Shown: positions 16,702-53,496 of the stretch, piece after piece
How positions within the stretch are numbered: position 1 is the first letter of the stretch
How the letters are laid out: every line of letters begins with the position of its first letter
Assembly (NCBI GenBank): GCA_015227615.1
Contig: JAALGZ010000009.1
Location: 1,178,001-1,242,000 of the forward strand
Length of the DNA stretch: 64,000 nt
Source of the DNA: Labyrinthula sp. Ha
Lineage: Eukaryota; Sar; Bigyra; Labyrinthulida; Labyrinthulaceae
Direction of reading: 5' to 3'
The notes under the pieces: model-generated
Seen by the model: only the letters and a program-made list of their open reading frames with translations
Told to the model about the DNA's origin: nothing
Databases searched by the model: none
Position numbers and translations under genes: made by a program

Positions 16702-17816
16702 TTAGAACTCTCTTCTTTTCCTTGTGACTAGTTCGATGGTTCCTGCTGAGTTCTCCCTTTCGTGGATTTGTAAGTTTAGTGGGGGAATGTTTTCTTTTAG
16801 GATTTTACTGGCTAATGGGATAAGATCTTCGTACGCTGCCTCTTCGCCGGTCAATTCACGTAGTTTTTCTCCGATTTTGTCATCTACTAGCTGTGCCAGG
16901 TTGCGGTCTTTAAGGAGCAGACTTACATCTGGTTTTACCTTGTGGACAAAAGACTTGTGTGTCAAATTGGTCAAGAATCTGGCTTCAATTGCTTGGTGGT
17001 CAAAGTTTGTACCACCGTACAGTTTCGCTGAGATGTTTTTTACAATTCTGAAGGATGTCAACAAGGGTAAATCGTTTGTTACGAAGAAGTCAATTTCTGA
17101 TTTTATCTTGGAGTTGCCTTTCTGGTAGTATTTTGCATGTTTATTTTCCTTTTTCCTTCCCGTTTTGAATTTAAAGTTAACAACCTCATATTCATGCTGT
17201 AGCAGCCATCTTTCCAGCATCTTTCCGTTCCTGTTCGATCTATGCGAATATCCATATCGATTGTTATCTTGTTTAAAGTTCCGGTTCAACTGCGCGTTAA
17301 GGTCACCTCCAATGATGATGAGCCTTCTCTTGTTTACTTTAGAAGTCACTTTTGTTAATTGAGAGAGAAATTTTTTGTAATCATCTGCGCTTTTCCCGAG
17401 TGTGGGGCGTAACAATTTACTAAAACAGCTTGAGCTTTACCATTTAGGCTTACTACAACTTTTAGGATCCTGTCGCTCGGAGTCTGAACTCCAACAACCC
17501 TCTCAGAGAGTTCTTGGCACAGAAACGTTGCTACGCCTTCGGAGCAGTTGGGCTGTTTTGACAAAAACCACCTTCCTGCTCTTTGGCTAACGTTCACCTC
17601 TTGTTCTAGTCTCTTGTAACCTTGCTTGTTCACTTCTTGTAGCATCAGGACGTCTGCATCCCTGGAAAGTTCACGAAGTACGTTTAGTTTGAAGGTAGTA
17701 AGACCACCAACGTTCACACTCAGTACAGAGACTGAGTGTCTTCGAAGGCTCGCGTGCTCTGGGACCTCTGTTGAGGCTTGAACGGAGCGGTTCAAAGAAG
17801 AACTAGAGATTTGCAT
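16702..17816 (-). pseudogene. LINE apurinic endonuclease-like domain (frameshifted)
   Basis: Two overlapping frames make up the domain: 17816-17355 (VLSVNVGGLTTFKLNVL, then LMLQEVN, NCYAPHSGK) and 17415-16702 (IIIGGDLNAQ, SEIDFFVT, GTNFDHQAIEAR). These are the LQEVN, GGDLNAQ and DHxxI signatures of the EEP endonuclease/phosphatase fold used by LINEs to nick their target. The two frames join at the NCYAPHSGK stretch near 17.4 kb, so one indel has broken the frame. The TAA at 16702 then ends the frame before the reverse transcriptase. This is ordinary LINE decay. Confidence 0.8.
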
Positions 17817-17845: not shown

Positions 17846-18009
17846 AACCGGAAAAAGTATGACAAAATTACCCAAAATTGGCATTTTGCATGACAGAAGG
17901 TCATACGAATTCCGGTAAGTCATATTTTTTTTTCAAATTTTCGTGCTAGAATTTCCCTAGGTAAAAATTAAGCCGGTTTTAACCGGAATTTGTATGACCG
18001 CTGTCATAC
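17846..18009. repeat. Cluster of three recombination-site-like palindromes
   Basis: A 29-bp site with core GCATGAC-5 nt-GTCATAC followed by RAATTCCGGT lies at 17888-17916 (+). An inverted copy lies at 17981-18009 (aaccggaatttgtatgac then cgct then gtcatac). A more decayed inverted copy lies at 17846-17870 (aaccggaaaaagtatgac). The paired 7-bp arms around a 4-5 bp centre are the architecture of tyrosine-recombinase core sites. The cluster lies just outside the LINE 5' end and just upstream of the recombinase-like gene. Confidence 0.65.
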
Positions 18010-35853: not shown

Positions 35854-35862
35854 GCCCAAATT
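35854..35862 (-). promoter_or_regulatory. Promoter word (AATTTGGGC) abutting the GT61 start
   Basis: On the coding strand AATTTGGGC directly precedes the first ATG of the glycosyltransferase. This is a variant of the ATTTTGGGCAAT word found at other starts in the window. The word may overlap the transcription start, which would imply a very short leader or use of the next in-frame ATG (35847). Confidence 0.45.
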
Positions 35863-36014
35863 CTGCTTATCTTCTTTCACTGCAGTTTAAATTGTCTGGA
35901 ATTTTTTCACCAGTAATGCTACATCGTTATTAAGCTACATTTCCAACAGTACAAAAATAGGGAGATCTTAGAGATCAAATTTTTAGTGGCTACACTTTCG
36001 AAGGCTAATTGAAG

Positions 36015-37965
36015 TAAGTGATTCAGAGGATCTGTGGCCAAATGGCCCTGAACTTATGAAAATAACAAAACACACGGATGACAAGAACAAGAGAAGAGTC
36101 AAACGATCCTGAATGTGAGGTAATACATCTTAAACACCAAGAATAAGTCCTTATACTATATTATGGACATTGTAAAGAGCATACACATCAAAATCAACAT
36201 TAGAAGTGCTTAAAAAGTAGTTTCAAACCACTTCAAATGAAGAAAAGTTTCGTCCCGTCACTTTTAAGAAGAAAAGGTACAGAAAATGCTCATAGTTACT
36301 GAAAGAATGATATGAAAGTGTAGGTTCAATTACACTTCCTGTAGGCCTTTAGTTTTGGAATCAACATAAATCTTGGTCTTGAAGTTTGAAAATACATCTT
36401 TCAAGTCAAGTGCTTAGGTCAGTCAGTTCATATAACTCAACTTAATAAAAACGAAAGCAGATTTTGTTTTGAAGTAATATCAGAAGTAATGCAGATGATT
36501 AGATGCCTAGGAATTTCTGACACAACTTTAAAACTGGTGGTAGTTATACTTTATCATGAACTTACAGGAATTTGCTTCAACAAAGATTTACTCAAGACTG
36601 TATTAAAGAGGACTAGAAAAACAGAAAGAATATCAGAAGACAAAAATATTCAAATATTAATTAGAGTCGGTCAAATCTGTTTGGCTAAAGGTTGTACGTT
36701 TACATTATACTATTCAAATGGAACACAAGCGAGACCTAGGCTGACAAAGCTAAATCTGCAAGAAGAACTACAAACAAAATTTACCGACCTGTATTTGGAT
36801 TCTATTAAGATCGATAATACCCACAGACTATCTCGCTATATATGTGTGGCAATTTTCACCATTTGCGTTGACTGTTTATGAAGACAGTCAATCTAGGTTT
36901 CACACTGATGCATACCTATAGTCATGTTGAGATTAATCGTGGCCCTAAAAACTTTGAACATTAGTGAATTGGAATAATATTTAGAATTCGTTTTTAGCCT
37001 AAGTAAAAGCGACCTATTAACTGGGAGCTACATATTTTTGTTGCGTGAAACATCTTTCGGTATCACTCAGGTCTGGAGCAAAAAGTGTGAAGGATCCAGA
37101 TTCAAGTACTTCATAGATCATGTAAGTAAAGCTGTTAGGGAAGACTTTGCCCGGGAAGGAAATTTACATCAGTGGCTTGATAATATTGCGAAGGGTTTTC
37201 CTGAAACTCGAAAACAGATATTTTTACAACACATTAAAGAAAATAAAAACTACTTGCTGGACATAGGTTAAGAAACACCTCATTATTAGACATGCTTCGG
37301 CAAAATATTTTGAAGAGTTGCATTTTAAGATCAAGGAAAAGGTCAAACCTCATTAATACACAAAGGATTGACAATTGATCAGGTGACTATATGCCATGGG
37401 AAACAGGTTCTTGATTTGGCGAGCTCCATACTAAAAAAATTGAAAAAGCTGACTTCTAAAGGTGAGAAAATATCAAAGAAAGTGGATGACATCATGATCA
37501 AAGAAACCATCAAGGTCACTAGATGTTTCATCGGTATGAATCGGGGAGATAGAACATATTGCGTCGCGGAGGAAATGAAATGCATCTATTTTCCAAGATG
37601 AAGATTTCAAAATCACTATTTTTCCATACAGCCCTAAAAAAAATAGCACATGTCACAGTTTCTTACGATGGAGCTCTAAATTCTAATGTTATTGTTCCAG
37701 GGTTCAAGAAGCTAAGTCTATTTAAGACGCCAGGTGTAAGATTTTTGATACTCCAGACAGAGGGTTAAGAACTATGTGCAGATAGTAAACATAGTACCGA
37801 TGAGGTTTGGAAAAAGCCATACGCAATACTCATTAGAATGATAGACGCCTTGAGAGTAGACTCTGATGGAAAATTCCTTTATGCAGATATTTATCGCTCC
37901 TAAAACTCTGTGCCAATGGTTATATCTCCGGGAAAAATAGTTATCCATAGAGAAGGCAGTATTCT
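36015..37965 (+). repeat. Unrecognised decayed coding repeat, copy 2 (inverted partner of 20590-22685)
   Basis: The plus-strand copy of the repeat at 20590-22685. It begins near gattcagagg (36021) and can be followed to the phrase REGSIL (about 37960), which both copies retain. Better-kept reading frames are 36489-36881 (containing CLGISDTTLKLVVVILYHELTGICF and RPRLTKLNLQEELQTKFTDL), 37038-37271 and 37368-37601. The left edge abuts the 5' end of the glycosyltransferase gene. No family is recognised. The 13-kb interval between the copies holds the BED, LRR and glycosyltransferase genes. Confidence 0.7.
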
Positions 37966-40900
37966 TCAAAGTCAAAATAGACTAAACATAAACAACTAAA
38001 TAGACTTTCTAATAATATTCATTCAATTCAGCTTCCATTCCTTTCTCTAACGCGAAGTTTTTCTATATTGTTCTCGCTTCACCTCTCCTCATCTACGTGA
38101 TCGGCAACTTTGACACTAAAGATACCCTTCTTGACCCTCCACGGACTAAAATCAGTTTCAATCTATTCGGCACATACATGTTCAATTAACATGCCTCGCA
38201 TATGCTTAAATAGATTGAGCAAAAGAAAGAAGATAATGACAACACTAGCCAAGCACAAGTAAATCCCCTGGTTAGCAAACATTTTGAACTTGTATCTAAA
38301 ACCATGTGTGGAAATTGGCCTAAAATAGCAGAAATCTGGTTTCAGTGGCCGCTCAGGAATCTGGAAAACATTATTCGCCATGAAGCTTCTAATGTAGTAT
38401 TCAAAACCCATATAGGACAAAATATAGCTATGTATACTATTCAGTTAGCTGTTGGGAATAAAAATATACATATTTACATTTCATACCTTTTATTTTAGCT
38501 ACCATGGGTAAAAGTTATTCAGACATAGGGGTTAGATTTGATCTTATTCACCCTAATTTTAGTGCTAGAAACGCGCTTTATTCTTGGCTGTTTTTTTCAA
38601 AATATGAAATAAAGTTCCAATTCAGGAACCCATTTTCAGACAGGGACATATGCGTTTAATTTTTGTACACCAATACAGACTGGGTTTATCCCTCTATGTT
38701 TTTTATCTCTTTTCGGCTGTGATAAATTTATCGGAATCAGAAATCTTCGGGGAAATACAAAGAATAAGAAAAACAAAAATCTAGCAAAACAAGTCCACCA
38801 AAATCACAACACTTTAGCTATATGCTTTTTAAGCAAAAATTCTTTAATTACACAAAATTAATGAATAATTCTAATCCAGAAATCTGAGTTCCTTCTATAG
38901 AATCTGAGTACTACAGAAAGATTTATGTCCTAGTGCAATAAAGATAGAATGGTCTAAGGAATAAAATTGCAACGAATATTTTGATTCAATCTTGAAGTAG
39001 GAATTCATACGAGGAATTATATATTTGGAAGACCTGGGTCTTGGCACAGAGCTCAGAAATGATATTGTTGCATTTTTCTTTAACCTCACGACTGATAAGT
39101 ATATTTTACTGTAAATAAGAATCAGGAACCATTTTCCCACGCGAGTTTTGATTGGTGTGCCAAATGTAGCTTAAGAATAATCACCCTGTAACTGTACAAG
39201 GTACAATAAATTATTTATATTTTTGCTGTAGACAGTGATATTTGTATCTGTCTATTTGAATAGTTAGTTAACTAACTAGCTCTTTGAAGCGGAATATCAG
39301 TACCGATGAATAGAAATAAAATCTTAATAGCATAACTTCATTGATATATTTTTACTAATTAAAAATTACCCAAAATTCCAAATAGAATGAAAGTACTGTC
39401 ACCGCTACTTCTATAAGAAATCTCTATCAGAGTAGATGTCGTGGTATATTAACATAGCAACCAGCTTTAACGCACACATGATATGGCCTCTACTGCTAGA
39501 TAAGTCTATATTTATTGCCAAGCTGTGCCATGAGGAGCTCTGCGATAGATATTCTCTCTACTGTAGATCTTACTAGCTTCTGCTTAGGCTGGAGTTTAAT
39601 GAAATTTATTAAAAATTATTTGGTAATCATTTTGATTCTGATTATCAATAAAAGAATTGGGACTTTCATTTTTATCAAATGTTTCTGATTTTATTATGAT
39701 TATTAATTGATCATCATACTGAAGCTGGAATTTTGCGACCCTGTTTTAAATTGTTGAGAATTTCTCATTAGTTTTCTGTACCGTATGAAAAAATTTGAAA
39801 ACAGGACACCTGACATGGGAATAATTCAGTAACAGGATGTTGTTCAGACGTGTGGCTAATTTATTAAAGGGCTTGCGTACGCGCAAAAATGAAACAGTAT
39901 TACTATGGCTATTTGGCTAATGGCCTTGTGACGCAACCTTATATTCTTTATCAATTGATTATCAATACTCAAAATAAATGGTTAGGGAATTATTAGAATC
40001 AATCAATAAGAAAAATAGAGGGAGTTTTCTTATTGATAAATCATCAATGAATGAATTACCACCCATAGCTGACATAGAACCAGCAAACTCAAAGAGACTA
40101 AAGTTGCCTATAATTAGGGCAATTCAAAAGAAAATAAGATTTAATATCTTCTTTCATAGTAGAATGAGTTTAAGCATTCAGGCCCTACTGTCTATAGTTG
40201 ATAGAGCTACTATGCTCTTTGTACAAGAAAGCAAATTAAGATCTAGCTAACTGAGAAGTTTTTTATGCTCTTTGCCAATAGAATATATGAACTCCTTAGC
40301 GGAACGAGTGCAAGATGGGGTTTATCAGTTTAACATTACCAGAATCAATTCTCCTTCTCGTATGGTCGCCTTAAGATGATGCTCTGATTCTTATTTTCAA
40401 TTTTTATTCTAGCTTGCGTTCATTTTCGACAATTTTTTTTATTTTTGTTGATTTGTTTTCTTGATCTTTTTGATTGTACAAGTCTCCTGTAATTGCTCAT
40501 AAATGTTAGATATCGGGTAATGACCTTTGGAGGCTACTTGATATTCTACCTATAGTGTAACTATATACCCGCTGTAAGAATTAATCTGTAAATAACCATA
40601 AAGGTATTTTTACAAGCTTCAATGATCAACCACATCATGTCTCCTAGTCGATTCTTCAATATTGATCTTAACTTGATTCGACATTTTTCTCGGCAAAATT
40701 CACCAAGAAGATATAGGATCCAAGTATCCAAGTTTCTGGCGTTATATGGGCTAATTCGGAAAATGACAACTTTCAGCATCACTTTGACATCTGGCATTGT
40801 CCAAACCAATCATAAACTTCTAGCTTCATATCACCTTTTGCTAAGAAACTCAACTAGCTTCTCAAAAACTTATTTGGTATTAATTTTCCCATGGTACTTC

Positions 40901-42091
40901 CCCTTCTCTTTGATTGAGCAAGTCCATCTTTGGTTAAACCTGAGATGAAATAAAATTTCCATGCATGAGGATCCTTTTAGAGCAATTTTGTTTGCATGCG
41001 TAATTCATTCAAGACTTCAGCGAGGAGTTCTACTAACAGTGCTTTCTTCGGCTCAGATGATTTTAACAGAGAGACTACGTATTATAGATTTGATTTTTTT
41101 TCACATACTTCTTATTTCTCTGCTTTTTCAAGTATAATAATATGTTCAGATATCTATCTAATTATATACAGATTGAGCTTTCCTCTTAAGTAAGTCTACA
41201 AGCAGGCTAATAACATTTAGCTCAAATTATATATAGAGATATCTTATAGCTCATTTAAGTCATAGCTGTATTGTTCAAAAAGGTACTCAAGTAGATTTCC
41301 ATCTATCTAACAAACCAACGTAAAGGAGCTAAATCCGTCTGTATATCCTAAAACACTTTACTCAATGAGAAAACTTTCATTATATTTATTAAACCTAATT
41401 CTGCAGATAAATAAACGTTTTTTTTTGTCAGGTCTTTAAAAACTATTTCAAGTACAGAGTTTTAAACAATAACATTTTCTATTTCAAAAGAGGCCTTCAC
41501 ATGAATGTCTTTAAAAGATTGCAGCATCAATTCAAGCTCAACTTCTGTTATTTTCTTGCATAGGCTTTAAGCAACCAGTTTCAAAAACATTTCTCTCGAT
41601 TTTATGAAAAGAAACCCTAAGAGAGCGCAACAGAAACCACTTTCTTCCAAATGAGGTGACAAGTAAGAAATTGATGCGAAAATGAGAACTTACAATCACA
41701 TATGCAAAAATGAGCAAGCATATCCAAAAAAAATCATAAATCGGAAATTGAATTCACATATAAGGAAACAGATTCACAAAAACGGAAATGAAGTCAAAAA
41801 GTGTCAGATGGGGGTTCAAATGGTATGCAAAACACTAGCGATGATCTCTTTTTCATGAATATCTTGATGTGATTGGTATTGTTGGAGGTATTCTTCCTTC
41901 AGATATAGCCCTGTATATTAATACTAATTCTAACATCTCTTGTTAGTTCAAGCATGTCTTCCACAGGAAATCTCATCACCCATGGTTTCTTGTCTTCGCA
42001 ATTATGTAGAGATTTGAAGAAGAAGCCTGTCGACTTAAACTTAGCTGCAGGAGCTTTGAACAGCTTAAGTCTTACATGTTCAGAATATACT
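37966..42091. other. Gene-poor stretch with decayed repeats
   Basis: No supported gene. The longest protein-like frame is 39978-40250 (+, 90 codons, starting MVRELLESINKKNRG), which has plausible composition but no recognisable domain or promoter word. Frames around 40561-40948 on both strands look like decayed coding sequence. A segment near 39590-39830 recurs near 57500-57720. Confidence 0.45.
39590..39830 (+). repeat. AT-rich dispersed repeat, copy 1 (partner 57500-57720)
   Basis: Shared ordered landmarks with 57500-57720 in direct orientation are gattataattatcaataa-like sequence, then agaattggga, a second tatcaa/gattatta block, then gtac(c/t)gtatgaaaa and finally tgacatgg. The two are clearly related but diverged, consistent with an old non-coding mobile element. 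Confidence 0.5.
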
Positions 42092-44650
42092 TCAGGGCAC
42101 TTTTCTTCCCTCCAGTTCTCTTATGATGCTACTAGGGAACAAGTTGGTACCGCTGTGGTCCTTTTCAATTCCAAAGCAATGTTGACTCAAAGCCAAGAGT
42201 TCATCCCAGAGGTTGAGATTCTGCTCATACTTCTTAACTAGCTGAGCATCTATCTCGGCAGCAACTGATTCATACGGCGTCAATATATCTACAAAGAGAC
42301 TTTTTAACTTGTGAATATCGATCTTCATTTGTATGAAGCCTTCGTTAACATTTCCCGAAACATGAAGTGTCTTGAGCATTGCAAGAAAGCAGTCTCTTGT
42401 GACCCTTGAAAACTTCAGCAAAACTTGCAGTGTAATAACTCTTTCAATCTTGAATGTCTCCAATACATTACTGTACCTCTTGATGATGTTTAACATCTCA
42501 TCTACTGGCCTGGAATGAGTTATCTTGAGATAAAAATCATTTCTTTTTGGCGAAGTCGTATAGAAAACCAATCCCTGCATTTCTAGCTGGAACAGATAAA
42601 TAAAACTATTGACCCCTAATGAGTACGATTGCTCCGCAAACACTAAATACTTTTTTAATGCTAACTGAAAATCGGCACTTTCTGCATGGCTCTTTTCAGA
42701 CAAGAACATAAAAGCCTTTGAGATTGAATTGTACATTTTGTAAAAGCTTTCAAAATACAGCTGATAGTCGTTGAATTCAACCAAATTAGGAGAATCAGGA
42801 AGTCTTTCATCCCCATTTCTCATTTTCAAGAACTTCTGCTTTATTTCATGTTTAGCTTTTGTTACTAGATGATGTTTTTGTTTTATCAAGGCTAGCTGCT
42901 CTGGGTATAAGTGACAAAATAATAGGTTATTCACTGACTCGTAACCATCAAAGACTAAAACTTGTCCAACTAAATCCAAATCTGTGCTATTCTTGGTAAT
43001 TAAATCCATTTTCGGAAGCACAGAAAACATCAAACATACTAAATTAGCAAAAACATCCTCAAAAAATGCCAACCGGAAACTATAAAGAAACTCAGATTTA
43101 AAGGTACTCAATCTTTCAGCATCCAACAGAATGGAAGCTTTCTGCAGAGATCTCTGAAGGAGATTACTAATCTTTTCGAGTACATTAATATCTTGGATAA
43201 ATGCACGAATCATATCTTTTCTTGACTTAGTATCTTTCACACATTTCTTCAACTTCTCTATTTTGTTGCGCAAAGTTATTTCAAAGTTTTTTGCATTTTC
43301 AAGTGATTTCAAACTTGTGGTCTCAAAATCTTTGTGCAAGTACTCTTCAACAACATCAACGAAAGATTTGCTACCATGATAAGAGCTCAACAAAATATCA
43401 ACTTCTACATTGAAAGCGGCGAGTTCAAACTTTTCAAAGTCTGCTGAAAACTTTTGAAATAGTTGGTGAAAACTGTTCTTAAGCAGCTCAACATCATCTC
43501 TAGAAATAAAAGAGTTTTCCTCCTCAAACTGAATCAGCGTTTTTTCTAAAAGAGTTTTACATTTACTTAGCATTCCATAAAAATTATATTTCAATTTTGC
43601 ATCTTCCCTCTTCTGAGTTTTAAAGTCTAAATAAGCAAGGTTAATAAAAGCAAGTAGACTATTACTTTCAGCTTCAACCAGCTGGTTTATTAATAAAATC
43701 AGCAGCTTTTTACGTTCTCCCAAGGTAAGAAAATTCTTGGATATTTTTAAATGTGTATTGAACAAGGATTTAAGCCTGGAAAAGATTTGATCCAAGTTCG
43801 TTGAAACATCGTTAAATGACTTTAGTTCCCCTTCTAATTTCTGAATATTTAAATCCTTCAGGCAAAAGTCCACGTAGCTCTCCAGAAACTGATCAAATCC
43901 ATTTATAGGAGAGAAATATGACCGAATGGTATTTGATAGTTTATGAAGTTGTGACATGTTAACCTCAGGGGACTTGAACAAACCTTTTTTCCTCTTTAAT
44001 GTGTTGCCAAGTAACTGTTGCATCTTTTCCTGCAGAATTCTTTGTTGGCTTTCCTTCTTAGCTTCAATTTGGTTTACCTAAGGAATAATTGAGTTTGAAG
44101 ACTTACTAGAATAGTCAAATTATGACACTCGAAGAGCACGCGTGCTTGATACTCCAAGCCGACGCTGCTACTAGAAGTAGAATAAAAAAACTCTTCAATA
44201 TTATGATCATTCATAAGAGACTTGGATATCTTCAATATATCTCTAAATTCAGAACAGAACGAAGATGCACCTTGCAAGTGATAAGTTCTCCATTTTGTTA
44301 GTGAGCAATGATACTTCGGACGCAACATACCCAACATATTTTGTATTTTTCTGAAAATTTTTATTCCATGATTCATTATCTTGCTGAAGAATACTCCCAT
44401 CAGATTCTAGCAGGGATCTTATAGCTGAGTAATCCGTTTCCACTTGCGATTTCAATCGTTGAATTTTTATTTGATTGTCAACGATCTTTTTTGAGTTCAA
44501 CGCCTTTTCTCTTTCAAGGAACTCTTCCATTTTATCTATTTCAATAGATGAGATGTTAGTCTAAATGTTAAATGAATAAGATCAAAGTACAGATGTTTCC
44601 GCATCGCCTCTAGATAGATATTTCTCCAAAGATTTGTCCTCAACTTTCAT
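42092..44650 (-). CDS. Candidate exocyst Sec5-like (CATCHR) tethering subunit (4 exons)
   Basis: Exons 44650-44591, 44560-44271, 44242-44107 and 44077-42092, separated by introns of 30, 28 and 29 nt, give one 823-residue frame. The N-terminal 190 residues are charged and probably coiled coil (EEFLEREKALNSKKIVDNQIKIQRLK; NQIEAKKESQQRILQEKMQQLL). The rest is all-helical, as in the CATCHR subunits of exocyst, COG and GARP that tether vesicles before fusion. The end of the protein (QMKIDIHKLKSLFVDILTPYESVAAEID) resembles the C-terminal LTP region I remember from Sec5/EXOC2. This is a remembered family resemblance, not a search result; another tether or an unrelated coiled-coil protein is possible. 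The start was chosen because the spliced frame reaches an ATG 12 bp downstream of ATTTTGGGCAAT. Confidence 0.6.
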
Positions 44651-44702
44651 TTGATTTCACGATTGCCCAAAATAAGTATCACTTTAAACGGATATTAGAA
44701 AA
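44651..44702. promoter_or_regulatory. 52-bp bidirectional promoter with ATTTTGGGCAAT
   Basis: This spacer separates two divergent start codons (44650 minus, 44703 plus). It contains one copy of ATTTTGGGCAAT on the minus strand at 44662-44673, 12 bp from the left start and about 30 bp from the right start. One element must therefore serve both genes, or the promoters overlap the coding regions. Confidence 0.6.
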
Positions 44703-45744
44703 ATGCTATTGTACAAAGATTTTTATTTTAACATATAGAAAATTGTCAACAAGAAGCTTTATTCTAACTCGACAGCGTTTTATCCCTCCAAACAAAATCT
44801 TTTTCAGATATCTATCTACTCGACCAATCCCCCAATTAAGAAAAAAAACGTCTAACTCCAACACCATAAAATTCAAATTCTTGGCTCTTGGGATTGGCTC
44901 CTTGACTTTTGGTAGTTTTTTTTTTCTTTTATCTGTAGCGTATATTTTATTTCTACTCTTATTTCAGAAGTTTAGCATTAAGAGATGTAAGTATTTACAT
45001 TATTTCAGTCTTTAGGTTCAAGGAGATGAGTTGTTCCAGAAGTTTCCTCGATCAGAATCAGTCTCCTTTCAAGAAGAATCGAAAACAGGAACTAAATTTC
45101 CACTTACTCTAGAAGGATATGAGGCTCAAGATAGTGTGCATTGGCTTGTTGGTCACTCAGTTAGGTGCATGCTCGGCTTCTGTCGGTTTGAAATGGCTAG
45201 AGCTTATAGCTTTGCTCTGTATCTTTCTAACGAAGGTGTGTTACGATTGAAAGAAGAGAAAGAGATTGGTTTGAATTTTACTCAAGATCATGAAAAGTTG
45301 AATGAGTTTCTTTTTCCTTCTCCTTTTATGGAAAAAAGTGCAGATGTGGAACTTGCATATCCAAGTACGATTATGAGGTTGGTTATGCAAAGAACTGTTG
45401 ATGCAAGTCATATAGTTCATGGGTTTAAGACAAGTTTGGATCGTCGTGTAAAAGCTTCTAAGAACTCTTCTTTTGTATCTGAAAATGATCAAGTCGAGAT
45501 CCAGAGATTCCTTCAGTTCTTGACAGAAAGGGGAAAGTGGCAAAAAAATGATATGTTGCAATTATTAAGACTTCCTCATGGTTGTATTGAAGTTGAAATT
45601 AATGGAGAGAAAGATATATTTCTTCAATCAGAAGTTTTATCATGGTGTCTTTTTGACGCGTTTCATGGAAAAAGTGGACATTTTCAATCCAAAGGTAAAC
45701 AGGAAATCTTAGAGAGAACGAAGGAGCTTGTAGAAATAAGTTAA
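44703..45744 (+). CDS. Mitochondrial chalcone-isomerase-like protein (AIM18/AIM46 type, 4 exons)
   Basis: Exons 44703-44710 (8 nt), 44739-44939, 44968-44986 (19 nt) and 45016-45744, with introns of 28, 28 and 29 nt, give 318 residues. The N-terminus MLLKLSTRSFILTRQRFIPP is Arg/Ser-rich like a mitochondrial presequence, followed by RYLSTRP and a membrane helix around FLALGIGSLTFGSFFFLLSVA. The C-terminal domain follows the chalcone-isomerase fold order: VGHSVRCMLGFCRFEMARAYSFALY, MRLVMQRTVDASHIVHGFKTSLDRR, then LPHGCIEVEINGEK and LSWCLFDAFHG. Fungal homologues lie in the mitochondrial inner membrane region and their role is not settled; some bind heme. The stop codon lies 10 bp from that of the converging AspRS gene. 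Confidence 0.7.
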
Positions 45745-45754
45745 ACTATTCTCT

Positions 45755-47831
45755 TTATTTTATCTTTGTTGGTGCACCACTTAATGGATCTCTTCCAGTG
45801 AGAGTTTTTGGAAAAGGAATCACATCTATTATTGTATCTGTAGAACAGATTAAAGTCAAAAGTCGATCTAACCCAATAGCAAAACCACCATGAGGAGGAG
45901 CACCACTTGAAAGTGCATCTAACAAATGACCAAAGGAATCTTCTATATTTTCATCAGACATATCGAGAACCCTTTTAAATACTTTTTTTTGTATATCTGG
46001 TTCATGTATTCTTATACTTCCTCCTCCAAGCTCCATTCCATTGCAAACTAAGTCAAAAGATTGACTTTTTAAGGAAAGTAACCTTTCTCTATGTTTTATA
46101 TCTTTATTGATATTGGAAGATAGAAGTTTCTCAAAGATTGAATTTTGTTCAAGGCTAACTCTTGTAAAAGGATGATGAACGGATTGTAATCCTTCTGTAG
46201 TTGAATTAAACTCAAACATTGGAAATTCTTCAACCCAAAGAAATCGAAGAGTATGATTCTTCTCCAAGTAATACTCTGAATATTGACTAACGACTTGACC
46301 TAACCCATCAACTAAATATAAAAACAAAATAAAAACAATATACAATGTGCATATTTATCTACTGAAGATATATTTTCAGCAAAAAAGATTATATCGTTTT
46401 CTTTAATCTGTGCTGTTTGCAATTGTTTTCTCAATAATTGTTTGTCCTTCAACTGTGTAAGTTCTGAAATAGAGGAAGACAAAAACAGTTTTGGTTGCCC
46501 ATTCACAAAATGTGCAACTCCAAATCCACAGAAAGTACCATTTCGCTGCCCCAAGGTATTGATCCAATTTTCGAAAAACTTTCTACTAATTTTGATTTTT
46601 TCTTTTAATTTCGGGATTTTCAAGTAGGCAACTTCTTTTCCACAGTTTTCAAAATCAAGTGTGTTTATTCTCAACTTTGTACGTAAGTCTGGTTTATCTG
46701 ATCCATAACTACGCATAGCCTTATCATACGTTATCTTCTCAAAAGAAATCTTCTTCATTAAACTCTTTGGAAGAATTTGCTGCAACCAATTATCTAAATC
46801 ATCCCCAGCTCTTGGTATTCCATATTTTTCACCTGTTTTTATTGCAGACCTTTTTGCTGATGAGAATATTTTACTGATTAACTTCTCAATCAACTTCTGC
46901 AACTTTTCTTGACTAGCGTATGCCATTTCTAAATCTATTTGTACAAATTCTGGTTGTCTATCACTTCTACCAGATTCACATCGATAGCACCTAGCTATTT
47001 GAAAATACTTGGAAAATCCAGATGCCATTAGCATCTGTTTATATTGCTGAGGACTTTGTGTAAGTGCATATGCAACAGTTTCTTCTTTTTCTTTACCTTT
47101 AGATGGAGGATCAACAGGAACCAAAAATTCTCTAGCACCTTCTGGAGTTGACTTGAATAATGTTGGTGTATCTACTTCAACAAAATCTTCTTGAAAAGCT
47201 AAAAAGTTTCTTGCTTCTAACATAACTGCTGATCTTATTCTTATATTCTGCTGCATTATGGGATTTCTCAAGTCATAATATCGATACTTTAATCGAGTTT
47301 CAACATCCGTAGTTGTCTGCCTAGAAATAACAGGAAACAAAAAAATACATTTGGATATCTGATCTCTCAAGTCTTTTAGATATTTTCACCGGAAGAGGAG
47401 AAATTGAGTTGTTCAATATTTTTGTGTCATCAACCAAAATTTCAACTTCTCCAGTGCTCATAGTTAAATTCTTCATCTGTTGCGGTCTTTTAGAAACCTT
47501 TCCAGAAACTTCGACAACACTTTCAAGAGGAATTTTATCTATATGTGATTGTTTATCAGACCAAGATATTTGAACAAGACCTGTTTCGTCTCTAATTGTT
47601 GCGAATCTCTTTGCATTTTCTTTTCCAAGAACTCTTGATGACTCTAACCAACCCTTGAGTATTACATCTTGACCAACATGTTTCTTATTAATTTTTCCAC
47701 AACTAAATTTTAATGGTTATATGGAAATAAAACGATATTGCTTTTGTTGAAACGGTATTATATTGGAGATGTATGAGATTTAATCCACGTATCAAGTTTC
47801 TTGTTTTATTTGATATTATTGTATAAACCAT
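45755..47831 (-). CDS. DARS2: Bacterial-type aspartyl-tRNA synthetase, probably mitochondrial (4 exons)
   Basis: Exons 47831-47734, 47702-47349, 47320-46344 and 46311-45755, with introns of 31, 28 and 32 nt, give 661 residues. It charges tRNA-Asp (or tRNA-Asn in non-discriminating forms) with aspartate. After a presequence-like start (MVYTIISNKTRNLIRGLN) come the CGKINKKHVGQDVILKGW opening and OB-fold anticodon-binding domain. Class II motif 1 region is FVEVDTPTLFKSTPEGAREFLVP, motif 2 is RCYRCESGRSDRQPEFVQIDLEMAY, and motif 3 is GGFAIGLDRLL. A bacterial GAD-type insertion sits between motifs 2 and 3. The GAD insertion and HPF-TR-type block (HHPFTRVS) mark the bacterial/organellar class, not the cytosolic one. 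The symbol is by analogy to the animal mitochondrial enzyme. Confidence 0.9.
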
Positions 47832-47834
47832 TTC

Positions 47835-47847
47835 ATTTTGGGCAATT
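47835..47847. promoter_or_regulatory. ATTTTGGGCAATT word at the AspRS start
   Basis: On the plus strand ATTTTGGGCAATT lies 3 bp outside the AspRS ATG, so on the AspRS coding strand it reads AATTGCCCAAAAT. Plus-strand coding-like remnants lie on its other side (47924-48198), so it may have served a divergent pair. Confidence 0.5.
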
Positions 47848-47923
47848 ACATTTTCATGAAGTAAAATTTAGGATTGGATTATAGATACTAGTTTTTATAA
47901 GAATATTTCCATTAATATTGTCC

Positions 47924-48198
47924 ATGGATTCTGGGCCATATAACCAAAAAATTCATAAGAAAAATATTAGTAGCATTAAATTAAAATATAAAGATGAAGC
48001 ACCATTAAGAGTCTATATTGCTAGAAGAAGAGGGGAAAACTACGAGAGAATGTAAATAGATCTTATGGAAAGAGTGTGTCGCAGTTGAAATGATGGAAGC
48101 TATCTGAAATGTTATTTCCATCGGATTATGAAGGAGTGAAGAATTATCTCACTGAATATCAAAGGAAGAAATACAAAAAATTCCATAATGTTCAGTAA
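47924..48198 (+). pseudogene. Possible decayed small gene divergent from AspRS
   Basis: Two plus-strand frames lie about 80-360 bp from the ATTTTGGGCAATT word: 47924-48055 (43 codons, MDSGPYNQKIHKKN...RRRGENYERM) and 48109-48198 (MLFPSDYEGVKNYLTEY...). Both are basic and have codon-like composition. They are in different frames and I found no 28-32 nt intron that joins them cleanly, so this is either a broken gene or chance. No family recognised. Confidence 0.3.
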
Positions 48199-48199
48199 A

Positions 48200-50392
48200 C
48201 GATCTCAAGGAGATTCAGTTTAGCTTAAGCATATAGAATCCTTTAATGGTTTGCGTTATACTTTGACTATGGTCTGAAAGTTGGAATGCACAGTTTCCAA
48301 GTAAGTTTTTTAACAAGATAAATTACATGAAGAGAACAAGCACTTAAAAGGGAAAATCTTGTTCTCTACAGTTAAAGAAAATAATTTAAATTTCAAGAAT
48401 TTTTTCTTGTGTACGCTACAGTTTTACTGCTGAATGACTTTAGTCACTCAAGAAAACTTAAATAATAGCCCTTAATTTGGTTATGCATTCCTTCATTTGA
48501 ACCTGAGTTGAGTTTTATAATTTTTCCAATAAATCTTATCCCTAACTACTTTCCCAACATTCTTTTATTCTTCCACTTTCGCTGTTACTAGCGTTCAGTG
48601 GAATATTGATTGCCTTCTATTCATAACAGAATTCCCCACTTCAACTCTCTCGTGTGGCAGGATGTGTAAAATCAGTTACGGTTCCACGTCTTAATCTGAC
48701 AGAGAGCTTGAAATATTTTAGATTTTATTTTTGTGTACTTCCCCTATGAAGTAAATAATAATATACAATTATCAAATGTGGCTTATGTGTCTCCTTTGTT
48801 CTTTACTGTTTTCTTCGGTTTTATATCATGACTTACGATATCACTGTGTTTTTATTTATATTTTCAGTAACTACTCAAACTAATACGATAACTCAACCAG
48901 TCAGAATGGATTGGCCTTTGGAAGTCTAGCTTCGATAGAAGCTATGCCACAGGGTTTGGTCCAAAATTTGGTAGACAGTTGTCATAAAGCTGTTGTGAAC
49001 TCATTCTTAATCCTATTCTAGAACCAGCAGTTCAATTGCTCAAAATAGGTGATATAATAGTTTCTTATATTTTATTCAATGAAGTTGTAAGAGTTTATCT
49101 TTCCAAATCATCTTTTTTCAAGGCGCTTTTGAACTAGAGCTTTAATTTATTATTCAATACGAATTTTGTTCATAAGACTTGTCAAAAGCAAGCAAATATA
49201 AAGAATCAAATTGGAATTTCAAGCATTTCTAACTTTTACCCAGTTAGATATTATAACATTAGTATCTTTGGAACGCTTGACTCCATATATTCGTTATTAA
49301 TGACCAAGTTTAAAATTTTTCTAAGTAAAAAACTTGTATAATATGTCACACCATCAGATTGCAGAGACATATGGTCTTCCTATGTATTTTAGTAGTCATA
49401 TCTTGCAAGAAATTAGTGAAGGGCCTATAATGATAAGGCTATGGGACGTTCATAAGAGCTCCTTCTAAGTATTTTTCTTCATGAAATACAATTGGCATAC
49501 GCAAGGCCGCTGAGACAAAGTCAATCAAGTACTCATGAAAATGAAAGTCTTCGCGTATGAAACTCTTAGTAATTTGTATTAATATCCTTGTTTCAGTGTG
49601 AGAAGCATAACTAGATATGAATATAACACATCTAATTGAACGATGTAGTCAGCTCCTAGTTACATTCTCGATTTCCATAAGGCGGCAAGCAAGAGCAATA
49701 AAAAATATCATATCTCGAGCTCAATAGTTGAAAAATACTTTCTAGCTCAGGAGCACATGAATCGCAGTTTTACAATATAATTGTAATGTTTATTATTTAA
49801 GGAATAGATTGAAGATTGCCCTGAGTCAACTAATAACATTAACCAATTTGACAAGAATTAATTTTGTGCCTAAAGCTGAAATCTTAATAGATCAACTCAA
49901 ATATGGTGAGCTGGACTAATAATACCTACAGACACTTAGAAGATTTTTCAAAACTCCAATTTACTGATCTCAAGCTGGCTATTCTACATTACTAAACTTG
50001 TTTGCAAAGTCCTAGAATTGTTTCTAGAAACATAGCAGAAAATTAATATCATGGTATTGATAATCTTCTTCATCAAACAAGATTTTAACTTTTATCCTAT
50101 TTTTAGCCGAATTTACACCCTAATATCAAGTATAACCAATATAAAAGAACGGTTACTTTCCTATAGAAAAGAACAACCTTAAAATCGGGTTTTATAAGCT
50201 GCTACAGGTGCGACACTGAGCTACACCTCTTCATTTACTAGGCACTTAAATTTTCCTTATAGTAAGCTACTGTTGTGCATAATATTAATCTAAGTTGACT
50301 CATGGGCATGGTGAACAGTTAGTATTTCTTTTTTTCAGTCAAAACAGAAAATATTTTATTCTTGTTTCTTAAAAAATAAGTATAACTTAATC
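48200..50392. other. Gene-poor gap inside the gene island
   Basis: No reading frame in this stretch reaches 60 codons. I see no repeat shared with other parts of the window. Confidence 0.5.
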
Positions 50393-51058
50393 TTACTTAA
50401 AACTAATATCTTTTTGCACATATACTCTCAATAACTCTTTTTGAAATTTATCATCTAGAATTTTCTTCTTGAAGCATCGTGGTTGCCTGTTCCAATGGTA
50501 CTTCTGTACTTTGTGCATCAAATCAGATTGATTTCTGGAGTTTATAACTTGACATGCCGCTAATTCTTCTAATAACATGTTCTTAAAGAAAACATTAAGA
50601 TCTTGGCCGCCTGTAAAGTACCCTATTTCAATTAACAAGAGAAACACTTCAGATTGCTCTTGCTCAAATATGTCACATAAGGTCATTTTCCCATCTTTTA
50701 CTCCATGATTAAGTTTCCCTGGATGAGAAATCTGTGTTGATAATATGAGAGCACCTGTTTCCAATGGAAGAACTAAACTAAAGTTTTTAATTGGGATACT
50801 TGAAGAAACTTGCTGAAGCATGAGAAACTTAAGGTGCTTAATGTTCTCTTCCGGAGAAACTCTCAAGGTGAAAATTTTTGGTCCAAAACGGGGAGCGAGT
50901 TTAAAATGTACTGTAATCAAACCACTCATGGCTTCAGTTTCAGGGAGATCATTGTAATCTTTAAGTAGTTTGGTTTGTGTTTGCGGAACTAGTTTAAAGC
51001 AACCAGGGCATTCATTTTCATCACTTGTTTTTTTTAGACAAATTCGACAAACCGACAT
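50393..51058 (-). CDS. Zinc-ribbon protein with ubiquitin-like region, unrecognised
   Basis: 221 residues, no intron. It opens with a CX2C-X9-CX2C zinc ribbon (CRIC at 4-7, CPGC at 17-20). Residues about 45-85 (GLITVHFKLAPRFGPKIFTL...SPEENIKHLKFLMLQQ) have the strand-strand-helix pattern of a ubiquitin-like fold. The C-terminal half (VFFKNMLLEELAAC, then a basic tail) is helical. I do not recognise the family. The start codon is only 10 bp from the divergent LRR gene's start, with an in-frame stop just upstream, so the ATG choice is firm and the 5' leaders of the two genes must overlap or be nearly absent. Confidence 0.65.
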   Translation of the reverse strand: MSVCRICLKKTSDENECPGCFKLVPQTQTKLLKDYNDLPETEAMSGLITVHFKLAPRFGPKIFTLRVSPEENIKHLKFLMLQQVSSSIPIKNFSLVLPLETGALILSTQISHPGKLNHGVKDGKMTLCDIFEQEQSEVFLLLIEIGYFTGGQDLNVFFKNMLLEELAACQVINSRNQSDLMHKVQKYHWNRQPRCFKKKILDDKFQKELLRVYVQKDISFK

Positions 51059-51068
51059 TGATTAAGTA
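51059..51068. promoter_or_regulatory. 10-bp spacer between divergent start codons
   Basis: Only ten bases separate the two ATGs at 51058 (minus) and 51069 (plus). No ATTTTGGGC word lies here, so promoter elements must sit within the coding sequences, or transcripts start inside the partner gene. Confidence 0.5.
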
Positions 51069-51818
51069 ATGGATCTTGTACTTGTAGAAGATGAAACTCC
51101 TAGATTTTATTTAGATTTGAAAGACAGAAAAATTCAGGACTTAAGACAGTATTCCTTGTTCAACAAAATTATCCAAAAAAATGTAAGAACAATTCTCTCT
51201 CTAAATTTGAGTGGGAATAATTTAGATGAAGAAGTAATAAATTCCTTATTACCCTTGGAATCACTTCGAAAACTAAATCTCAGCAGATGTAACCTTAGAA
51301 AAATTCACCCTGAATGGAAATTACTAAGATATCTTAGGTCACTTAATCTCTCTTGCAACTTCTTGAAGGATCCTAGCTGCTTTGAAAATTTAAGAGGAAT
51401 CAGCAATCTAAGAAAACTAAATCTTACGAAAAACTTTTTCGAGAATACAATTTTTGGAGGATTTGATAATCTAGAAAAACTTTTGTTAAGAGAAAATAGA
51501 TTTCGTTCTATTGATCAACTTGAACATTTAATTTTACAATCACCGAATCTGAGATTACTTGACTTGCGCTCTAATTGCTTCTCAAAGAGCGAATGCAAAG
51601 AAATGTCATTGACAGAACAAAAGGATGAAAATCTAAATTTATTTCGAATGAAAAATGTCATTATTAAAGATGTGAACTTAATCAGATCCAAACTTCCTTG
51701 CAGCCTACTCTTCCCTACCAAAGAAGATATAAACAAAATCAAACAGTCTAAAAAATCTGCATTTATACCAGCACTAACATATATCCCACATCTAAATCTA
51801 CGAAAAAACTTCACGTAA
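51069..51818 (+). CDS. Leucine-rich-repeat protein (SDS22/U2A'-like repeats)
   Basis: 249 residues without signal peptide, so presumably intracellular. At least five repeats of about 22 residues are visible from residue 45 to 165: ILSLNLSGNNL, LRKLNLSRCNL, LRSLNLSCNFL, LRKLNLTKNFF and LEKLLLRENRF, closing with LRLLDLRSNCF. The LxxLxLSxNxL pattern fits the SDS22/U2A'/TBCE type of scaffold for binding other proteins. The C-terminal 70 residues (about VIIKDVNLIRSKLPCSLLFPTKEDINKIK) have no match I know. The start is fixed by an upstream in-frame TAA. Its function cannot be read from sequence. Confidence 0.75.
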   Translation: MDLVLVEDETPRFYLDLKDRKIQDLRQYSLFNKIIQKNVRTILSLNLSGNNLDEEVINSLLPLESLRKLNLSRCNLRKIHPEWKLLRYLRSLNLSCNFLKDPSCFENLRGISNLRKLNLTKNFFENTIFGGFDNLEKLLLRENRFRSIDQLEHLILQSPNLRLLDLRSNCFSKSECKEMSLTEQKDENLNLFRMKNVIIKDVNLIRSKLPCSLLFPTKEDINKIKQSKKSAFIPALTYIPHLNLRKNFT

Positions 51819-51919
51819 AACTCAATTATAAAATCTAAAATATCGCGCAACAGCACTCTAACTCTTATAATGATGTTTTCTTAATTCAAATGTGTTCTTG
51901 TTTTCAAAATGTCCATCCA

Positions 51920-52411
51920 CTATGTTCTACATGTTTCTCCTCTAAGTAAAAGTCGTATATTTATTTCATTTGAAACTTTTCTTCTAGACCATATTTTTCT
52001 TTTGAACTTTTTCAAACTCTTAATCCGGTTGATTTCGATCCTAGAACTAAACCTAACACGAGGAAACGAGGGACGGCGCTTTAAAGGCGCAAATCCATTT
52101 GGACTTTTTAAATCACCTATAGGACATTTTCTTTTTCCCCTTTTTATTGTTTGAACATAGCTTCGTTTGGGGATCTTTTCTCTACTGTCATCTACTTTTG
52201 GGGTAGCCAAATCTCTCCTCTTGCTTTTTTCACAGGGGTGCTTTGTAAAATATGCTGCAGATGAAACCTTTATATTCTCCAGTTTAAGTCCAAGTGATTC
52301 AATTGTATTTGTAGAGTTAGTTGACCTCTGGGACGTATTAAGCTGCATTAACTCTTTCTTTGATACTTCTTTCACGCCGTCCTGGACTTTATTTGTTGTC
52401 CCGATTCGCAT
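51920..52411 (-). CDS. Small basic protein, unrecognised
   Basis: 163 residues from the ATG at 52411 (MRIGTTNKVQDG); the frame is open further upstream to 52495 but would run into the neighbouring gene. I chose 52411 because GCCCAAAATT lies two bases upstream, as at other starts here. The C-terminal half is very basic (SYVQTIKRGKRKCPIG, APLKRRPSFPRVRFSSR, KSLKKFKRKIWSRRK), typical of a nuclear or RNA-binding protein. No domain recognised. Opposite-strand frames exist in the same interval but are shorter, hydrophobic and probably spurious. Confidence 0.5.
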   Translation of the reverse strand: MRIGTTNKVQDGVKEVSKKELMQLNTSQRSTNSTNTIESLGLKLENIKVSSAAYFTKHPCEKSKRRDLATPKVDDSREKIPKRSYVQTIKRGKRKCPIGDLKSPNGFAPLKRRPSFPRVRFSSRIEINRIKSLKKFKRKIWSRRKVSNEINIRLLLRGETCRT

Positions 52412-52484
52412 TGAATTTTGGGCAAATATTTTTTGAGCCCATGTAAGAACTATATTTTGGGCAATTGAGGAATAAAAGGATATT
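52412..52484. promoter_or_regulatory. Divergent promoter with two ATTTTGGGCAA words
   Basis: Two like-oriented copies of the word lie at 52414-52426 (aattttgggcaaa) and 52454-52466 (attttgggcaatt). The first abuts the start of the left gene, the second is 18 bp before the SDR start. One word per start fits a core-promoter role. Confidence 0.6.
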
Positions 52485-53496
52485 ATGAAAGACAAAAAAG
52501 ATGATGTTTATGTTATTGTTGGCGGAACAAGTGGAATAGGATTTTCCATGGTACTGAAAATTATTCATGAGGAACCCATGGCAAAGATTATAGCAACTGG
52601 CTCATCTGTTGACACTTGTAGACTTGCTGAGGAAAAGTTTCTGAAAGAATTGGGAGAAGAAAGAGGTCGAGTTCAGATTCTTCCTTGTAATTTAAACGAA
52701 AGAGAAAACATATTTCAATTAAGTAAATTAATTTTATTGAGATGTAAGTCTATTAAAGCTCTTTATTTAAACGCTGGTGCAATATATTTTCCAGGAAAGA
52801 ACAACACAAAAAATATTTTCAAAATAAATGCTTCAAATCAGTTTCTTCTTGCAATGGAACTTCGAAATATAGTTGAGAAGATTATTTTAACTTCATCTAG
52901 TCTTCTTTTAGCCCCTATATATTGTAATGAAAATAATATCTCTAATGTATTCAATCTTCGAGAATATGACAACTCAGGTATATTTTGTTTTCTTGTTTAT
53001 TTTAGGACTTCTTGCTGCAAAATATTATTCTACATCTAAACTTGCTCAACTTGTTTTTGCTGAATATTTTTGGAAAGAACATAAAACTCCTGTAGGAGTA
53101 TTTATTCCGGGAAGAGTTGCTACCAATCTAAAGAAAAGAGACAGATTGAAGTACTCTCCAATCCCCAGCGATTCTGGGTTCCAGCGTTTTACTGCATCGG
53201 AAGCAGCAGATGGTTTGTTTTTGTTTTCTAAGAACATCCATCCTGGTGTTACTCTTGGTTCAAAATATAATCTTGGCTTCTTTGTGTTGGATATTCTTCC
53301 GAGTTTAGGTCGTATTGCTGCAACTTCTGGATTTGATCTGTCATTTGTATTTTCTGCGCTTATATGGATTAACGAGGTTTTTCAAAAAGTTTCACTTTTT
53401 CATCCTGTGCAACCATTTTACAAGATTAATAAAAGATTTTTAACAGGACTTAAGTTGGAAGAGATGGAAAGGTTAGTGTCAAAGTGGATTGAGTAA
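52485..53496 (+). CDS. Short-chain dehydrogenase/reductase (2 exons)
   Basis: Exons 52485-52977 and 53006-53496, joined across a 28-nt intron, give 327 residues. Rossmann-fold NAD(P) binding is shown by VIVGGTSGIGFSMV (residues 9-22) and LYLNAGAI. The catalytic set is the serine in LTSSS and YYSTSKLA (the YxxxK pair), which is completed only when the intron is removed, confirming the splice. A hydrophobic C-terminal half (LGFFVLDILPSLGRI; FDLSFVFSALIWI) suggests membrane association, as in sterol or fatty-acyl reductases such as the Erg27/HSD17B7 group. Substrate is not determinable from sequence. Confidence 0.85.

Follow-up and report, generated by a model that had tools for sequence, protein, structure and literature searches.

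In the 64-kb window analysed here (C143:1178001-1242000, the whole stretch of Labyrinthula sp. Ha DNA), a short word recurs close to several start codons and reads in either direction, which raises the question of whether it is a promoter element and, if so, of what kind. We find that the word ATTTTGGGCAAT is over-represented throughout the genome, often lies near gene starts, is indifferent to orientation, keeps company with a second word and is biased towards proteasome genes. Judging from these sequence patterns, the word is probably an orientation-indifferent proximal promoter site for a putative factor, serving single genes or divergent pairs.

The word in the window and genome-wide

The original prediction placed the word, allowing two changes, at five sites. 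Four of these hold, three as exact copies and one with a single mismatch, while the fifth, assigned to the GT61 gene at 35854-35862, reads GCCCAAATT, which has three mismatches across the 12-mer and is no credible copy of the word. The copies and the genes beside them are listed below, with a variant, ATTTTGGGTAAT, that the original prediction had missed.

44662-44673, minus strand: exact word, 12 bp, between the divergent Sec5-like (ATG 44650, minus strand) and CHI-like (ATG 44703, plus strand) genes, the two ATGs being separated by 52 bp
47835-47846, plus strand: exact word at the start of the AspRS gene (minus strand), whose ATG is at 47831 or overlaps the word
46312-47370, minus strand: main exon of AspRS, the gene that the copy at 47835 would serve; open reading frame matching Pfam tRNA-synt_2
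52415-52426, plus strand: copy with one mismatch, 3 bp before the second ATG of a basic protein (52411, minus strand)
52454-52465, plus strand: exact word between the basic protein (minus strand) and an SDR gene (ATG 52485, plus strand)
52485-53039, plus strand: SDR open frame that the copy at 52454 would serve; Pfam adh_short
17867-17878, minus strand: variant ATTTTGGGTAAT, 50 bp before ATG 17816 (minus strand), which begins the first open frame of a retroelement

With splice sites chosen by hand, the word lies 19 bp from the ATG of SDR, 11 bp from that of the Sec5-like gene and 29 bp from that of the CHI-like gene. The copy at 52415 falls inside the basic-protein frame if the first ATG is the start; if the second is used, the copy at 52454 is 43 bp away from it. 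The first exon of AspRS is provisional, as an attempted exon join lost the frame, and the candidate ATGs are either in contact with the word or 3 bp away from it. AspRS is nearest to oomycetes (43% identity), and the CHI-like domain is supported by a Pfam match; a Pfam search with the Sec5-like gene gave no match, and its name is that of the original prediction. The orientations that had been claimed are correct for five genes (GGGC for Sec5-like and SDR; GCCC for AspRS, the basic protein and CHI-like), and the word is, as also claimed, absent at up to two mismatches near the lipase, actin-related and ZnR/LRR starts.

Within the window taken alone, enrichment is weak, with 19 matches to ATTTTGGGCAAT at up to two mismatches against 11.9 in shuffles, of which 1 in 100 reached 19, but genome-wide it is overwhelming. 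The exact word occurs at 827 places in the 50.84-Mb assembly (153 contigs), split 413/414 between the strands, against 6 for a control with the letters reversed. Since this control contains CG, we also used Markov models of order 1-4, trained on retrieved sequence with the word masked, which predict 16.5-20.6 places. At up to one mismatch there are 2909 places against 237 for the control, the former being perhaps a lower bound: the list misses some exact places, and our genome-wide counts in general may be lower bounds. These comparisons rule out a chance origin. The core TTTTGGGCAA is found 1568 times against 105 for its control, the variant ATTTTGGGTAAT 189 times against 17, and the heptamer GGGCAAT 4196 times against 1448, so that the full word accounts for about one fifth of the heptamers. 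Among the papers listed in a literature search with 10-mers of the word, none was on it, judged by title, and those listed in searches on GGCC words and on labyrinthulid promoters showed no report of it. Within the literature searched, ATTTTGGGCAAT is thus a new motif, albeit of a familiar kind.

Neighbouring genes and a partner palindrome

Of the 827 exact places, 89 were analysed together with their 250-bp flanks, all of them on contigs C1, C2, C13, C24 and C143. Comparison of the flanks gave 80 unrelated groups, nine of the 89 sites being dropped for related flanks, and because the flanks are mostly unrelated the word is not a repeat. The base directly 3' of it is T in 62 of the 80 independent sites. 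In 16 of the 80, an open frame of 100 codons or more has its first ATG no more than 60 bp away: upstream on the antisense side in 12, downstream on the sense side in 6, and both in 2. Random non-coding positions are as near to such an ATG in 406 of 12904 cases (3.1%; P = 3.7e-9). The coding pattern around 50 sites runs antisense upstream in about half and sense downstream in about a third, and it is interrupted at the word. Across the 80 sites, A/T skew falls as low as -0.33 upstream and rises to +0.21 downstream, flipping sign at the word; taken in 15-bp bins, it never rises above zero upstream or falls below zero downstream. This pattern matches a point from which genes diverge, and it may partly reflect coding strands.

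Several counts weigh against the promoter reading. The stricter test of an ATG within 60 bp is failed by 64 of the 80 sites, 24 of 80 show no credible gene in the 300 bp to either side according to a weak coding model, and 7 of 80 fall within an open frame of 100 codons or more. Some of the sites without a gene may owe this to short first exons, though not surely all. The exact word was found in 2 of 56 windows 180-300 bp upstream of starts, and TBP, represented by one locus with two matching exons, has no word within two mismatches.

Genes beside the word are of many kinds. Among those named by Pfam with an ATG within 60 bp of it are the genes for Spt4, a LYR protein, DHFR-TS, a DEAD helicase, cobalamin adenosyltransferase, an amino-acid transporter, apyrase, SMC, a RINGv protein and SDR. 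The word separates the two genes of the divergent pairs LYR protein/DHFR-TS (66 bp between the ATGs) and S10/Spt4 (L035), and of the pair around 44662 in the window; the first exon of DHFR-TS is supported by P0121 (EukProt). A mitochondrial gene class is suggested by some neighbours, namely the LYR protein, AspRS, cobalamin adenosyltransferase and the CHI-like protein with its mitochondrial-looking leader. As to the relatives of individual proteins, DHFR-TS is nearest to Aplanochytrium (54% identity), a Brassica cretica protein that came second by bits being set aside as one carrying the thymidylate synthase sequence in repeated copies, and DNA topoisomerase I has its closest named match in Mucochytrium quahogii (53% identity). 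Together with AspRS, these proteins indicate a stramenopile, perhaps close to Labyrinthulomycetes. One locus encodes an unusual dual immunophilin, an FKBP-TPR-cyclophilin fusion (L012:6770-8296, minus strand).

A palindrome, GGCCANNTGGCC, occurs at 369 places genome-wide against 1 for its control (for example at L018:5023, L095:34, L099:120 and position 36036 of the window). In 18 places the exact word is no more than 30 bp from it, when about 0.4 would be expected from the genome-wide counts. GGGC reads away in 10 of these, with gaps of 5, 5, 6, 6, 7, 8, 9, 15, 26 and 29 bp, and GCCC in 8, with gaps of 0, 9, 10, 10, 11, 17, 24 and 25 bp, so that most gaps are 5-11 bp. GGCCANNTGGCC is likely a second promoter element.

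Proteasome genes

A search of the genome with the PF00227 profile found 14 matches, as many as the 20S proteasome genes that a eukaryote should have. In the 300 bp upstream of all 14, with ATGs assigned by hand, the word is found at up to one mismatch in 8 and at up to two mismatches in 9, at spacings of 31-70 bp from the ATG. The genome-wide rate predicts 0.155 copies in the 2706 bases concerned, against the 8 observed (P = 7e-12). Five of the 8 copies read GCCC and three GGGC. Three proteasome promoters also carry GGCCANNTGGCC, two exactly and one with a mismatch, each time across the word from the ATG. Counting against the promoter reading, five proteasome genes (L096, L097, L098, L100 and L104) are without the word at up to two mismatches. 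The promoters at L096 and L104 contain several ATTGG/CCAAT words, an observation made without comparison to a control.

Other starts in the retrieved sequence were taken for comparison after exclusion of 8 among 56, whose copy of the word had selected the locus. Six of the remaining 48 have the word at up to one mismatch, including the retroelement start at position 17816 of the window and the start of the basic protein, which has the original prediction's own sites; the difference from the proteasome genes is significant (Fisher P = 0.0014). At up to two mismatches within 150 bp the figure is 8 of 48, and the word is thus not at nearly all genes. Taken together, the genome-wide counts, the 16 sites near ATGs, the skew switch and the proteasome starts bear out the original prediction of a recurrent word near gene starts in both orientations. 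Its further proposal, that the word marks a gene class, survives as a tendency: the spread is uneven, favouring proteasome genes over other starts, but neighbour genes are varied.

Possible functions of the word and comparison with known systems

In the reading that we favour, ATTTTGGGCAAT, often followed by T, would be a double-stranded DNA site for a sequence-specific factor, placed in the proximal promoter some 3-80 bp upstream of the ATG. Working in either orientation, a single copy could act for one gene or for a divergent pair. At a minority of promoters its partner would be GGCCANNTGGCC, most often 5-11 bp away. The putative factor would raise transcription of a broad set of housekeeping-type genes, and the 20S proteasome genes would use the site strongly.

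The word might instead be an initiator, as in the original prediction, with transcription starting in it or within a few bases of it, on one or both strands, and with leaders of 3-80 nt. We regard this as unlikely. Very short spacers are seen at AspRS (3 bp), L016 (2 bp), L036 (4 bp) and L013 (6 bp), and with only 2-6 bp between word and ATG transcription could hardly begin downstream of the word, which makes an initiator possible. Both strands of the word hold a C-A step, the A/T skew switches at it, and Encephalitozoon offers a precedent in which, in the sections cited, a CCC or GGG triplet stands just before the ATG and leaders are shorter than 7 nt (PMC2803860). The spacer to the ATG, at 3-80 bp, is unfixed, which speaks against an initiator, although this is a weak point, as leader length could vary. 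A directional initiator should not function in both orientations, and both are in use here, genome-wide as well as among the proteasome genes. The only annotated leader that we met also speaks against it. EukProt (P0121) holds an identical DHFR-TS protein with a MAKER header (scaffold_1, QI:203), the first QI field of which we take to be the length of the 5' leader; with a 203-nt leader, the transcript would start some 150 bp farther upstream than the word. This leader (L025) runs into the opposing LYR gene, which would be either a real overlap or merged transcripts, and it may be an artefact of merged unstranded reads. A bolder version, in which polymerase starts on both strands from one 12-bp word (at the C-A steps in GGGCA and CCCAA) with help from GGCCANNTGGCC, driving divergent housekeeping and proteasome genes as a separately evolved stramenopile counterpart of the microsporidian CCC/GGG signal, appears improbable.

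Yeast general regulatory factors clear nucleosomes, and the word could likewise be a nucleosome-clearing or boundary site that opens up the chromatin separating divergent genes and is not itself an activator. Its orientation-indifference, its placement between divergent genes and its presence at many kinds of gene would all suit such a role, and by sequence this is inseparable from a proximal factor site. The proteasome bias, however, suggests control of a gene class, and we consider a purely clearing role very unlikely. An element of the leader RNA acting in translation or mRNA stability would account for nearness to start codons, but it is disfavoured by the use of both orientations even in one gene family, the proteasome genes, and is highly improbable.

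That the main word is a dispersed repeat or transposon end is scarcely credible, and we rejected it as flanks are unrelated beyond the word: despite 7 small groups of related flanks among the 89 sites, contexts are for the most part unrelated and the word adjoins conserved cellular genes. What such a reading has in its favour is the variant ATTTTGGGTAAT, whose copies pair up on the same strand at a spacing of 4726-4729 bp, as long terminal repeats would, with at least five pairs among the first 100 of its 189 places.

C46: 715617 and 720345
C46: 1188091 and 1192819
C69: 448875 and 453604
C67: 119 and 4846
C72: 360618 and 365344

Judging from their spacing, the paired copies look like the two long terminal repeats of one retroelement family. 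A retroelement also lies in the window.

14515-17816, minus strand: non-LTR-type retroelement (RVT_1, endonuclease-like), with ATTTTGGGTAAT 50 bp before its first open frame

Here ATTTTGGGTAAT is perhaps an internal promoter. Retroelements, too, seem to carry the word, which hints at the borrowing of a host promoter.

To our knowledge, promoter grammar is barely known beyond a few model stramenopiles, and we know of no master factor of proteasome genes described in this lineage. A proximal factor site of the kind that we favour, as a strong and simple two-way word paired with a palindrome, would make start codons in this genome easier to place, could serve transgenes in this organism as a compact divergent promoter and would point to such a master factor. 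The oomycete Inr is a TCAYT-type word, unrelated to ATTTTGGGCAAT. It resembles our word in being a stramenopile promoter element, one described in the part of the source cited as lying near the transcription start (PMC3597505).

Closer parallels come from other lineages. In Microsporidia, a CCC-like or GGG-like triplet lies just upstream of the ATG of nearly every gene, RACE showed leaders shorter than 7 nt, and a divergent pair 35 bp apart has a palindromic signal in common, according to the sections cited (PMC2803860). A C or G triplet near the ATG is found in both systems, and in Microsporidia too GGG replaces CCC at some genes; there, as far as the cited sections go, only the triplet is conserved, whereas here a 12-13-bp word, recognized from sequence alone, lies at a minority of genes in an unrelated lineage (PMC2803860).

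The site of THAP1, THABS, is TNNNGGCA, and THAP1 occupies thousands of promoters; it activates PSMB5, a proteasome gene, through a site shortly before the PSMB5 start, and in human cells PSMB5 and PSMD8 are the only proteasome genes that it occupies, all as given in the passages cited (PMC11811203, PMC4177242). The portion TTTGGGCA of our word fits TNNNGGCA, and a published THAP1 probe, AGTAAGGGCAA, also has GGGCAA. Unlike THABS as so described, the word has a GGGTAAT variant in use (at L094, and as ATTACCC at L093) that breaks the GGCA core. By analogy, THAP1 and PSMB5 would form a striking parallel with the proteasome bias of the word. A search for the THAP domain (PF05485) gave no match in the genome, and none of 14 control genomes matched either.

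The yeast element PACE, GGTGGCAAA, is bound by Rpn4 and common to many proteasome genes, in the text cited (PMC7672625). Like PACE, our word is a short element at many proteasome genes, and GGCAA is common to both; it differs from PACE, as described there, in being a different word, in occurring at many non-proteasome genes too and in having a putative factor (PMC7672625). The nearest working analogues are therefore the microsporidian CCC/GGG signal, the THAP1 site and yeast PACE, and the word is filed under none of them.
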